Part shown: positions 13,101-15,401 of the stretch, piece after piece
Numbering within the stretch: position 1 is the first letter of the stretch
Layout of the letters: every line of letters begins with the position of its first letter
From: a virus
Direction: 5' to 3' (one strand)
DNA: 20,470 bases
Virus record (IMG/VR): IMGVR_UViG_3300023116_000451
Span: 1-20,470 of that record
Made by a program: the position numbers and the translations under genes
Notes under the pieces: model-generated
What the model saw: the letters and a program-made list of their open reading frames with translations, nothing else
What the model was told of the DNA's origin: nothing
Database searches by the model: none

Positions 13101-13380
13101 CATCACTCCTGACTTTGATGCTAATCAGAACTTCTCTGTAACTCTTGGCGGCAACCGTACACTTGCTAATCCAAGTAATATTGATGCAGGTCAGACAGGC
13201 AGTATCTTTGTTGTGCAGGATGGCACAGGATCAAGAACATTGTCTTTTGGTTCTTATTGGAAATTTGCTGGTGGTACTGCACCTACACTATCTACTGCCG
13301 CAGGATCAGTTGACAGAATTGATTATATCGTATATACTACTACAGCAATTCATGCTGTTGCAACTCTTAACGTAAGCTAA
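7177..13380 (+). CDS. Giant modular tail fibre protein
   Basis: A 2067-residue tail fibre, very long for a short-tailed phage. The N-terminal part (about 1-220, TKIANTYKQLLQVGSSNTGL) is probably the virion-attachment end. Next come three YGDGSNLTG modules (residues 234-242, 419-427, 748-756, the last as YGDGSNLTN), an Ala-rich segment with Phe every 6 or 9 residues (250-313), and three copies of FATSAELAATSAALATSI (starting 567, 656, 699). From about 980 to 1950 there are seven ERMRIDSSGNVGIG-like modules, and the final domain (about 1965-2067) ends IHAVATLNVS. A PLSGGTLTG motif follows the third copy. Residues about 849-1610 use GC-rich codons unlike either flank, suggesting an acquired block. 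Host binding is the expected role; no endosialidase or depolymerase motif was seen. Confidence 0.85.
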   Translation: MATLTGTKIANTYKQLLQVGSSNTGLTGSVQTVQDGQGNNSPLQLSQSAVNIDGTFQLSGVTLTANASTLNAVADLTGATGIVAVSAGNVYGRTITGGTGVSITNGDGTEGNPTIALNTTGVVSGTYGPLTTLEINEVGQIVSATAVSTSVSVPTIRASEFIGGTFKGTTADFSSDTSIGGTAVVEGAATFNSTVSVSGALTGSSATFTGTVSAGNISGANATFSGNVSATEYYGDGSNLTGIVAASATFAASAGFAASATNASFALSATNANFAASASFASSASYAASAGEASFAVSASSAAFATSADSATFAVSAANATTAYNVSGGVADISGLTAVSASISDLRAFQIGATSVSIGYLNVNDITAITISATDLKSSTLSFTSVSVSSLRVYRLAVETTLSATYGTFTGDVSAVSFYGDGSNLTGILVSVPTSVPSYTVNQLSVVSAASFPDDATLNFGTGNDLQIVHNGSNSVIKETGTGSLFVQSNEIKLTNTGSFSMLTLADGQDADFPYGIQVSGTVSATSFVGPTITSINSVISNVSALTSVNAAAITSINTILGDGSNFATSAELAATSAALATSIATANTRITSVSDYAVALSATLATSIGNSNTNITTNTNAITSINTVIAGVSALTSVNAAAITSINTVVDNLDFATSAELATVSAALATSISNSNTNITTNANAITSINTVINNLDFATSAELAATSAALATSISNHLPLSGGTLTGTVSGTDASFSGNVSAVSFYGDGSNLTNLPTAPTSVSAYTVNQLTIVSAATLAGTDLETRINTVSVNTSVNAAAITSINAIIEGDVSADSGTFNTLTVITSASVGGTLNVGGNVSIGGDLTAGDSTFDALKVTTTFGTITGASTGYIDDASGNMRVVSLGPNTSLNGTITFSSRRSDASNATDLLTLGGSTGNATFTGDVNLSAASGTIDLANAGNRGIYYDGTLVNVFSTVAGGDVQLDATDQVRFKTASTERMRIDSSGNLLVGSTNTDGFDGTSGLKVASSTAGFLLERTGTRSWLQYIDSSGDWRLYDSTDNADRMVVDSSGNVGIGTTSPAVKLHVSSGASNEVARFEGTNTPYISIYDTGVRQSYWISSTSIILRAENSKDLDIGTLNPNAFRFTTNNTERMRIDSSGNVGIGTSSPSAKLDVNGTLSASGLASVGDLTLTAGNPEILTDDNSTFLYISGSTTKDLGGNIILVPDSHPSVPNDIIFRSDATNVMRWDDSASTFDLLGNALSAGNIISTSSDTTDQVIIENTDDTSTSAPDIVLYKNSASPASSDNLGLIQFRGKDSAAADANYASILSQIDTPTNGAEVGRLAFFVMSGGVETQTLTLDDGNATFAGNVGIGGAASASYALQISEDSGSGAVPGILLNNTNSTPYDDWAIYTHANTLYFYNTTDAVNALSFDANYAATFVGDGTFSRSAVGGTVGLTIQNSATSGASAARLHLDVSDSSTADPYVWWSTDSTNVYAGIDNDDSDKFKIGNSFSTPFVAFEKTTNNATFAGTLSAGAGTFTGLDVDGNVEQHTATPTINYRLTGTGNVNVSQVVTTLSSNAASWDIRTMPSGGGGPFVSLYAAYSEVKLRTENTDALTIDSSQNVGIGKSPSYARLEVSDGAGTTPPETQSASTVALFQHNATSTDDAHISIIAGTSGQSRIYFGDANDENAGQIEYDHGSNYMSFRTNSSGEDMRITSSGSVGIGESSPSYKLHVRGDAAIQSGNVSLVVGANGGSTALSDTTQKIARIGTPHYTNSEEPIAVLMNVSDPSENILSIGGNTVSMNASTRIGFFTAGNTTTLSGSERMRIDSTGNVGIGTTSFSSGLTVSKEGSNTTDGAYFLVDSGNASLGGNAVGAGFKYAAAVGNAFIPFKITANGTTINQISSTGAMYVGNGSTAYGSHDPYYTFTHDTNTGMDWAAADTLTFKTGGTERVRIDSSGNVGIGTTSPAKQLHITKAAKADIGTLTDGATITPDFDANQNFSVTLGGNRTLANPSNIDAGQTGSIFVVQDGTGSRTLSFGSYWKFAGGTAPTLSTAAGSVDRIDYIVYTTTAIHAVATLNVS
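7876..7898 (+). repeat. Fibre module repeat, copy 1 (YGDGSNLT)
   Basis: A 23-base direct repeat encoding Y-G-D-G-S-N-L-T that is identical at 8431-8453 and 9418-9440. All copies are in the same reading frame of the fibre gene. Confidence 0.85.
7915..8151 (+). repeat. Ala/Ser-rich Phe-periodic coding repeat
   Basis: Residues 247-325 of the fibre repeat an F-A-x-S-A unit. Aromatic residues fall at 250, 256, 265, 274, 280, 286, 295, 304 and 313, that is, at steps of 6 or 9. This suggests a regular trimeric shaft such as a beta-helix or coiled segment. Confidence 0.7.
8416..8453 (+). repeat. Fibre module repeat, copy 2 (38 bases shared with copy 3)
   Basis: Encodes S-A-V-S-F-Y-G-D-G-S-N-L-T. 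All 38 bases are identical to 9403-9440, and the last 23 bases also match copy 1. The identity at DNA level could support homologous recombination. Confidence 0.85.
8875..8928 (+). repeat. FATSAELAATSAALATSI repeat, copy 1
   Basis: Eighteen-residue helical repeat in the fibre. Near-copies follow at 9142-9195 (with ATV for AAT) and 9271-9324, embedded in ITSIN-type repeats; the DNA copies differ mostly at silent sites. Confidence 0.75.
9142..9195 (+). repeat. FATSAELAATSAALATSI repeat, copy 2
   Basis: Second copy, encoding FATSAELATVSAALATSI, followed by a SNSNTNITTN segment that also occurs near copy 1. The following ITSINTVI block leads into copy 3. Confidence 0.75.
9271..9324 (+). repeat. 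FATSAELAATSAALATSI repeat, copy 3
   Basis: Third copy, identical in protein sequence to copy 1. It is followed by the fibre motif LPLSGGTLTG, a common end of helical fibre sections. Confidence 0.75.
9403..9440 (+). repeat. Fibre module repeat, copy 3
   Basis: Identical over 38 bases to 8416-8453. It precedes PTAPTSVSAYTVNQL, which echoes PTSVPSYTVNQL after copy 2, so the whole module is duplicated. Confidence 0.85.
10117..13030 (+). repeat. Seven DNA-conserved ERMRIDSSGNVGIG linker repeats in the fibre
   Basis: Copies of about 45 bases start near 10117, 10312, 10576, 11974, 12262, 12601 and 12982, spaced unevenly (65 to about 465 residues). Their shared core CGTATCGACAGCAGCGG is GC-rich even where the flanking coding DNA is AT-rich (12200-13000). 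Between them lie unrelated segments, so they look like fixed joints between exchangeable modules. Confidence 0.75.
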
Positions 13381-13397
13381 ATTAAAGGATAAATAAA

Positions 13398-13721
13398 ATG
13401 GCAATTACTTGGTCTATTGTTCAGCTTGATTATGCTCTATCACTAGATGGTCAAACTGATGTAGTAAACAATTCTCATTGGCAGTGCATTGATTCTGATG
13501 ATCAAGGCAATCAGGCTAGAGTTTATGGATCAGTAGCAATCCCTACTGACGATCTTTCAAACTTTACACCTTATGCTGACATTACTGAAGCACAGGCACT
13601 ACAGTGGACAAAAGATGCTCTAGGTGATGAAGAAGTAGCTTCTACTGAGGCTAATGTAACTTCACAACTTAATTTAATTGAAAATCCTACTGAAGGTAGT
13701 GGTAAGCCTTGGGCGGTTTAA
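13398..13721 (+). CDS. Small fibre-associated protein, function unknown
   Basis: This 107-residue acidic protein starts MAITWSIVQLDYALSLDGQT and contains NSHWQCIDSDDQGNQARVYG, then YADITEAQALQWTKDALGDE. The order of an ITW opening, a HW strand, an SYG-like strand and a W-containing helix recurs in small proteins encoded directly after tail fibres in marine phages and cyanophages; I recall them as a domain of unknown function. It begins 17 bases after the fibre stop, with AAGGAT as ribosome site, in a leader identical over 16 bases to the one at 14828. It may assist fibre folding or be a minor tail protein. Confidence 0.7.
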   Translation: MAITWSIVQLDYALSLDGQTDVVNNSHWQCIDSDDQGNQARVYGSVAIPTDDLSNFTPYADITEAQALQWTKDALGDEEVASTEANVTSQLNLIENPTEGSGKPWAV

Positions 13722-13750
13722 CTTAACACATAAACAAAAGGAGAATAATA

Positions 13751-13972
13751 ATGGGAAAAAATGAAAAAACCCCAATTATTGTTGATGACGTAGAATATCA
13801 ATACGAAGACATGACTGAAGAACAACAGCTATATGTAAATCATATTGCTGATCTAGATCGTAAACTTTCTTCTGCTAGATTTAATGTTGATCAGCTTGAA
13901 GTTGGTAAAAGTGCTTTTGTAAAAATGTTGACTGATTCTTTAAATAAAGAAACTATGACTGAAACGGAATAA
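13751..13972 (+). CDS. Small acidic helical protein, function unknown
   Basis: This 73-residue protein opens IIVDDVEYQYEDMTEEQQLY and continues with a helix predicted to form a coiled coil (HIADLDRKLSSARFNVDQLE, then a second helical part). A short beta hairpin followed by one or two long helices is also seen in small tail-region proteins of cyanophages and marine phages (I recall DUF6447-like). AAGGAG at 13738-13743 is an excellent ribosome site. It lies between fibre-related genes, so a fibre chaperone or minor structural role is a fair guess. Confidence 0.65.
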   Translation: MGKNEKTPIIVDDVEYQYEDMTEEQQLYVNHIADLDRKLSSARFNVDQLEVGKSAFVKMLTDSLNKETMTETE

Positions 13973-13973
13973 C

Positions 13974-14675
13974 ATGGTATTTAATAATAATCTCCTTCTA
14001 GGTGCAGCAGGAGCAGCAACGCCATTTTCGATCAGCAATACGGCTAACGGTACGCCGTCAACTAGCACCGGCACTACACATACGTTTAGCTCTCTAGCGT
14101 TTGGTGATGAGGATGACACCCGAATAATTATTGTCGCAACGAGCCATACGACGAATTTCAATAATGGTCGATACAGCAGCGTCACCATCGGTGGTGTTAC
14201 TGCCACTCAAATCGTCACGGCACTAGCAAACTCCGCCGACGACGGGCTGTCTGGTATTTTTGCAGCCCAGGTTCCAACGGGAACAAGCGGCGATGTCGTC
14301 ATAACATTGACAGCTGGCATAGGTGGCAATCGTGGTGTTTCTTGCAGTGTCTTTGCCATGTACGGCAAGGATGATGTTTCGGCACACGCCACCAGTAATG
14401 ATTCAGCGACATCGGGTGTTTTGTCTACACTGAGCCTCAACGTCCCTGCCGGTGGCGCTGTGATCGGCACGACAGGCCACATTGCAACCACAAGTGTGAC
14501 CTGCACATGGGTCGGGGCAACCAGAATAAACAATCAGCAGCCGGGTACTCGTCAAAAACTGAGCGAAGCTTTTTCCGCCGACTTATCAGCAGAAACGCCC
14601 CGAACTGTCACAGCTACTTGGTCTGGTGCTGCTGGCGTCACCAGCGGCGCAGCAGCCTCGTATGGGCCAAATTAA
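13974..14675 (+). CDS. GC-rich putative receptor-binding or tail protein
   Basis: This 233-residue protein is rich in Thr, Gly, Ala, Ser and Val with regular beta strands. Examples are TRIIIVATSHTTNFNN, YSSVTIGGVTATQIV, then IFAAQVPTGTSGDVVITLTA and a VFAMYGKDDV segment. The plan resembles beta-sandwich tail proteins of alphaproteobacterial phages and prophages in which a strand-rich domain is thought to meet the cell surface. The gene has strongly different composition: 35 of 60 bases are G or C at 14221-14280, against 19 of 60 at 15001-15060. ATG 13974 follows the previous stop by one base with only a weak ribosome site. It is probably an acquired accessory gene. Confidence 0.65.
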   Translation: MVFNNNLLLGAAGAATPFSISNTANGTPSTSTGTTHTFSSLAFGDEDDTRIIIVATSHTTNFNNGRYSSVTIGGVTATQIVTALANSADDGLSGIFAAQVPTGTSGDVVITLTAGIGGNRGVSCSVFAMYGKDDVSAHATSNDSATSGVLSTLSLNVPAGGAVIGTTGHIATTSVTCTWVGATRINNQQPGTRQKLSEAFSADLSAETPRTVTATWSGAAGVTSGAAASYGPN

Positions 14676-14695
14676 GAAAGAAGCAAGTAGATTAA

Positions 14696-14839
14696 ATGTG
14701 GAAATACTCAAACAGAACCATCCTTGAAAACAAATCTTGGACCGATGACAACGGGATTACACACCTGAGAAACTGGCACATATGTAGTACGGAAGATAAG
14801 GCGTTGCACCAGATACAGCAAGATAATAAGGATAAATAA
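14696..14839 (+). pseudogene. Truncated first part of a fibre-assembly-like gene
   Basis: The 47-residue frame reads MWKYSNRTILENKSWTDDNG at the start. It matches the first 35 residues of the next gene at 18 positions, including WTD, NGI and NWHI. It then loses similarity and stops. The last codons and stop (AAG GAT AAA TAA) are the same bases as the leader of the next gene, so the stop belongs to the neighbour's ribosome-site region. Composition is intermediate to GC-rich. I read it as the leftover front of a second version of the next gene. A real short gene cannot be excluded. Confidence 0.6.
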
Positions 14840-14840
14840 A

Positions 14841-15401
14841 ATGTGGACTTATAATGGAAAACAAATTAAAGAAGGAAAAGCTTGGACCGATAATAATGGT
14901 ATTCAGCATCCTGCAAATTGGCATATTTGGACGGAACAGGAAAAACAAGCTGTTGGACTTGTTTGGATCACTTTAGATACACCACCTGATAGCAGACTAT
15001 ATACTTGGTCATATAATGCTGATGGTACTATTACATCTACTGCTAAATCTATTGAAGATGTTTATGAAGTAGATGAAGATGGTAATGCTCTATTAGATGG
15101 TGATGGAAATCAAATTATTACTTTTGGTGTTAAAACTAAACTAAAAGAAGAAGTTAAGGCCCAACAGGCTGGGCTGCTAGCGCAGACCGATTGGGCAATT
15201 ATTCGGCGGGCCGACACGAACATCGACGTACCCACCAATATACAAAAATGGCGTGACGAAATTAGACTGGCTGCTGCGGCGATGGAGGATCAGATCACAC
15301 AGGCTGCTGACATTGATGCCATAGCTGCATTGTTTATTACCTACGATGAAGACGGAAACCGGTCTGGTACTCTCTATGAATGGCCTGAGTTAGTAAGGTA
15401 A
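14841..15401 (+). CDS. Fibre-assembly-like protein, apparently chimeric
   Basis: This 186-residue protein has an N-terminal domain (1 to about 105) with WTDNNGIQHPANWHIW, YTWSYNADGT and a Gly/Asp-rich linker, then a helical C-terminal domain starting near residue 106 (QQAGLLAQTDWAIIRRADT, RLAAAAMEDQITQAADIDAI). The C-terminal pattern 'LAQTDW..IR.AD....P..I..WR..IR' is typical of phage tail-fibre assembly proteins. Base composition jumps at about 15159: 19 of 60 G or C at 15001-15060 against 34 of 60 at 15181-15240. The switch falls at the domain boundary. The stop overlaps the next start (TAATG). A chaperone for one of the fibres is the likely role. Confidence 0.65.
   Translation: MWTYNGKQIKEGKAWTDNNGIQHPANWHIWTEQEKQAVGLVWITLDTPPDSRLYTWSYNADGTITSTAKSIEDVYEVDEDGNALLDGDGNQIITFGVKTKLKEEVKAQQAGLLAQTDWAIIRRADTNIDVPTNIQKWRDEIRLAAAAMEDQITQAADIDAIAALFITYDEDGNRSGTLYEWPELVR

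Follow-up and report, generated by a model that had tools for sequence, protein, structure and literature searches.

The open reading frame of 47 codons at positions 14696–14839 (plus strand) of the analysed viral DNA, a single metagenomic contig of 20,470 nt from an uncultured tailed phage (here called the window), is very probably not a gene but the scar of an exchange of a receptor-binding cassette. The frame was confirmed at this position and an ungapped comparison with the next gene (14841–15401, 186 aa) gave 18 identities in the first 35 residues and 1 in the last 12. Local alignment of the two resulted in a score of 115, the maximum among shuffled sequences being 58 (n = 5000), and tblastn within the window's own record recovered residues 1–36 of the frame at 50% identity (E 3e-9). 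The duplicate head of an assembly gene claimed in the original prediction is therefore real and far above chance. Its similarity to intact assembly genes stops at codon 35–37, and searches of the whole frame against Pfam and PHROGs gave no match. The part 14696–14799 (ATCCTTGARAAYAARTCNTGGACC) is described here as a truncated and decayed head of ~35 codons that stems from a foreign assembly/chaperone gene and travelled as a passenger with the adhesin cassette, and annotation of the 47-residue frame as a gene should be avoided.

The blastn blocks shared with the sister contigs L001, L002, L059 and L079 (L002 and L079 being the same contig) begin exactly at ~14800, a point that in the sisters lies inside the 3'-terminal part of a large adhesin gene, and continue from there at 79–84% identity. 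In all of them this gene ends with ...AENPFGGDGAAPATAR and a stop, the DNA there being GGCGCAGCACCAGCGACAGCAAGATAA, while window positions 14800–14826 (GGCGTTGCACCAGATACAGCAAGATAA) read GVAPDTAR and a stop in another frame than the 47-residue ORF. Since this tip DNA ends the adhesins of the relatives, the closing sequence of the frame can be divided into the 3' tip left from an adhesin gene that was replaced (14800–14826, plus strand) and the leader that carries the ribosome site for the resident assembly gene (14827–14840, plus strand, identical to L002, L079 and L059). The second parent beyond the break is thereby identified as the old adhesin tip, collinear with the four sister loci from 14800. 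Judging from the aligned sequences, the junction (GARGAYAAGGCGTYGCACCAG) is placed at 14796–14806, with recipient DNA from ~14800 onwards; this is ~20 nt upstream of the 14820–14828 first suggested. The idea that the frame is closed by its neighbour's leader holds for the last codons, which do run through AAGGATAAATAAAATG, but leaves out the old adhesin tip.

A degenerate pattern for the tip gave a single match in the window and none in any of 100 shuffled sequences. When the viral collection of IMG/VR was scanned for the tip, 48 stretches were found to carry it, nearly all with an adhesin ending ...AENPFGGDGVAPATAR and a stop and with an assembly gene within ~20 nt, and a head fragment before the tip appeared only in the window and in one further contig (L009, the same contig as L048 and L084). 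These 48 stretches were chosen by the tip itself; in an independent check using loci found by the assembly-gene head, a P-x-TAR tip precedes 22 out of 60 distinct assembly genes, and for most of the others the preceding adhesin is LamG-like and closes with a motif such as AFAE.PFK.A.AR.

The upstream end of the exchanged region was located in the same manner. Sister L079 harbours one intact adhesin gene of 1223 aa at this place and L001 one of 804 aa, both directly before the same assembly gene and both reading MVFNNNLLLGAAG...AENPFGGDGAAPATAR with a stop; we take these adhesins to be LamG-like, as recognised from the sequences rather than by a profile. The same four sister loci match the window on both sides, from 14800 onwards as described above and at 83–92% up to 7538, both flanks of the cassette matching the same sister contig in order, and the start and the tip of the sisters' adhesin gene are exactly the two pieces that the window has retained. 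Besides the last codons, ~38–45 nt of the old gene start remain (13974–14011/14018, MVFNNNLLLGAAG..., approximately the first 13–15 codons). The resulting N-terminal tag (MVFNNNLLLGAAGAA, 13974–14018, plus strand), from which the reading frame runs on into the foreign adhesin, shows 88–95% identity over 41–50 nt to the starts of LamG-like genes of 804, 1223 and 536 aa (L001, L002/L079 and L003, respectively).

Between the retained ends the GC profile lies at ~52%, compared with ~33% in the surrounding DNA, with steps at ~13990, ~14800, ~15158 and ~15390. The foreign GC-rich adhesin body (14019–14675, plus strand, 219 residues) was delimited by its alignment to L009 and the GC step; its structure model is all-beta but weak (pLDDT 53) and too poor for a fold search. 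The position of the 233-residue protein together with its predicted beta structure points to a putative adhesin, and the same flanking genes enclose different adhesins, LamG-like in the sisters and beta-rich in the window. A tblastn search of isolated phages gave no match for the 233-aa adhesin, and among genome contigs there was no relative of either the adhesin or the head. In L005/L006 a related adhesin (33% identity) has an intact, GC-rich assembly gene immediately behind it, showing that the arrangement expected of a donor exists. Further upstream, at 13365–13967, two small genes (DUF7936, 107 aa, and phrog_21153, 73 aa) are situated between a large structural gene and the adhesin; they are absent from L002/L059, where the adhesin follows after ~15 nt, and the region of the 73-aa gene matches Roseobacter phages CRP-1 and CRP-7.

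The second carrier, L009, shares adhesin body, head, exact junction and tip with the window, and the union can accordingly no longer be regarded as confined to this genome, as had been proposed. The adhesins are 84% identical in amino acids over residues 2–232, the identity starting abruptly at 14022, and the heads, which are 86% identical in amino acids, agree in 84 of 87 nt over codons 1–29. In L009 the cassette has an unrelated N-terminal tag upstream, while the assembly gene downstream differs from that of the window (60% aa identity), and the simplest reading of these sequences is therefore that the cassette moved between phages as a unit, after one original break. Exact-pattern scans of 2.9 million viral contigs, one for the junction and one for the head, revealed only L009.

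Comparison with intact assembly genes (93 distinct, full-length) showed that Pro24 and an aromatic residue at position 30 (Trp or Tyr) are both present in 93 out of 93. Both head fragments have Leu24, and position 30 is Cys in the window and a stop (TGA) in L009. A search for free-standing 47-residue genes that are conserved and share this end found none: of the 90 distinct assembly-gene loci having 200 nt or more of upstream sequence, two carry a second head, the window and L009. This agrees with the prediction of a leftover start from another version of the assembly gene, truncated and decayed, that recombination placed next to the resident one. A third candidate, in L126, was rejected as a chance match of 17 residues inside an intact adhesin gene. 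Between the only two copies of the head, 3 out of 87 nt differ in codons 1–29, while the few codons beyond differ more. For codons 1–29 this is less than expected from drift at the rate seen for synonymous sites in the neighbouring end of the adhesin (pS 0.16; binomial P ~2e-4). Such low divergence, a point against the reading as a scar, could stem from constraint or from a later exchange of the head stretch. Over 14019–14823 the divergence between the window and L009 falls steadily, the dS of the adhesin going from 1.09 at its start to 0.18 at its end, and since the adhesin divergence also decreases towards the 3' end, a recent re-exchange of the 3' part of the cassette is preferred, although unproven.

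The resident assembly/chaperone gene (14841–15401, plus strand, 186 aa) is itself a hybrid, as seen from the alignment to L002, the GC profile and class comparison, with an AT-rich part of sister type (14841 to ~15157) followed by a GC-rich part of a different class (~15159–15385). The profile phrog_4912, "tail fiber assembly", matches 28 out of 30 members of the family at E ≤ 0.01; for the gene in the window the match (E 0.002) covers residues 98–142 only. This match and the place behind adhesins suggest a putative function as fibre chaperone. The confident model of the protein (pLDDT 93) shows a helical domain at the C-terminus, preceded by a small N-terminal part, and the latter is all that the orphan head would encode. 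For the assembly protein, searches of the PDB by sequence and by fold brought up nothing convincing; viral predicted structures include proteins named tail assembly chaperone-like. Isolated phages contain distant relatives of the assembly gene only, the best at 46% (Phage C72C1, Roseobacter phages CRP-406 and CRP-811, Pelagibacter phage HTVC202P).

The following order of events is proposed. In an ancestor, a pair consisting of a beta-rich adhesin and its assembly gene would have been joined, after assembly codon 35–36, to the 3' tip of a gene for a LamG-like adhesin, a short stretch of shared bases (AAGGCG / GACGGCG) being the probable point of contact, giving a unit of adhesin body, orphan assembly head and adhesin tip that later would have moved between phages. 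We infer the donor from its class, since an intact donor with the exact head was not found (best 83% aa over 29 residues). In the lineage of the window the unit would have taken the place of everything in the resident LamG-like gene (~2.4–3.6 kb in the sisters) except its first 13–15 and last 8 codons, so that translation of the new adhesin starts in the old N-terminal tag and continues in the same frame. The head left over is decaying and would have no function as an assembly protein, and the frame would reach 47 codons by chance, running through the old tip and the leader, while the resident assembly gene, intact downstream, presumably serves the new adhesin.

The original prediction had instead assumed one donor for the fragment and for the GC-rich C-terminal end of the resident gene (15159–15385), the two being separated by an insertion of the resident 5' part, and had expected the missing rest of the fragment to match 15159–15401. 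Both pieces are indeed GC-rich and flank an AT-rich resident piece, but the similarities do not go together. The intact relatives of the head (class MWKYSGRTIKE..., 79–83% aa over the N-terminal 29 residues) have C-terminal ends that are 53–62% identical to 15159–15398, and the closest C-terminal ends (71–75%) are mostly found in genes with heads of MTTIFKCC type, 24–38% identical to the fragment; over the set of 93 genes, likeness in the head shows no correlation with likeness in the C-terminal end (rho 0.01), and L009 has the fragment together with another C-terminal end (58%). A common donor is thus very unlikely. As head and C-terminal similarities belong to different gene classes, the GC-rich end most likely derives from a separate exchange with another class, and most likely, by this class comparison, at least three sources of assembly gene meet within 700 bp. 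A local tandem duplication of the start of the resident gene, followed by divergence, would also place two heads in tandem, 145 nt apart, but appears extremely improbable: the fragment is 72% identical to the head of the L009 gene, up to 83% to MWKYSGRTIKE genes and 51% to the resident head, from which it also differs in GC content, and the tip of the replaced adhesin between the two heads is not expected from a duplication.

That the frame is a functional mini-gene under selection (a head-only assembly protein, a leader peptide or an ORF for translational coupling) would explain why the ATG is kept in both carriers and why their first 29 codons are more alike than neighbouring synonymous sites predict. 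We nevertheless regard this as very unlikely, as the frame occurs in two contigs only and ends differently in them (codon 30 and codon 47), has lost the invariant P24 and the aromatic residue 30, and takes its last 12 codons from the DNA of another gene, in the wrong frame. The single uncultured contig with its abrupt changes in composition might also suggest a chimera assembled from several metagenomic phages. The recurrence of the exact right junction in a separate contig, L009, strongly argues against an artefact of this kind, as does the match of both sides of the cassette to the same sister contig in order, making a chimera highly improbable. The exchange of an adhesin cassette carrying a broken assembly-gene head remains the preferred explanation.

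LamG-like adhesins located before the assembly gene (L079:2664–6335 and many loci of the tip scan) share the C-terminal end AFAENPFGGDGVAPATAR with a stop, or AFAE.PFK.ANAR with a stop, and this shared end is possibly a site recognised by the assembly protein. Among 38 tip loci there are 29 pairs with similar assembly-gene starts, of which 23 have unrelated adhesin ends, and in the pairs identity rises to 0.93–1.0 at the tip. These pairs, which are not independent and come from loci chosen by the tip pattern, are suggestive only of a conserved adhesin end repeatedly used as exchange boundary. Tentatively, the adhesin 3' tip (GCACCAGNNACAGCAAGATA and the leader) might be a shared DNA boundary at which many marine phages repeatedly swap whole adhesins, each retaining its own assembly gene, the orphan head then being a tracer of one such swap that spread as a unit. 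The importance of the locus lies in a change of a host-binding protein, predicted as such from position and the all-beta model, that can be resolved almost to the base with both ends of the old gene still visible, in a broken passenger piece that makes the same cassette recognisable in another phage, and in the indication that exchanges are likely to have their boundary in a conserved sequence at the adhesin end.

The event is an ordinary exchange of a receptor-binding module, of a known kind but unusually well resolved. Mosaicism of the tail-fibre C-terminal end and tfa is found in the coliphages Mu, P1, P2 and lambda, whose fibres combine a conserved N-terminal end, a swapped distal part and a downstream partner assembly gene with partial copies left behind, as is also the case in the window, although different protein families are involved. 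The likeness to the phrog_4912 family extends to gene order, the gene in the window directly following the adhesin. Within a limited coverage of the literature, a truncated assembly-gene head travelling as a passenger was not found described. In the Alteromonas phages A5, V22 and P24 horizontal exchange of tail-fibre/chaperone modules has been reported, with illegitimate or homologous recombination proposed as the mechanism (PMC10579305). There, as in the window, an adhesin and the adjacent assembly/chaperone gene are exchanged between otherwise unrelated phages, but while the Alteromonas phages share whole fibre–chaperone modules (PMC10579305), the window received the adhesin with only the broken head of its partner and the resident partner stayed in place.
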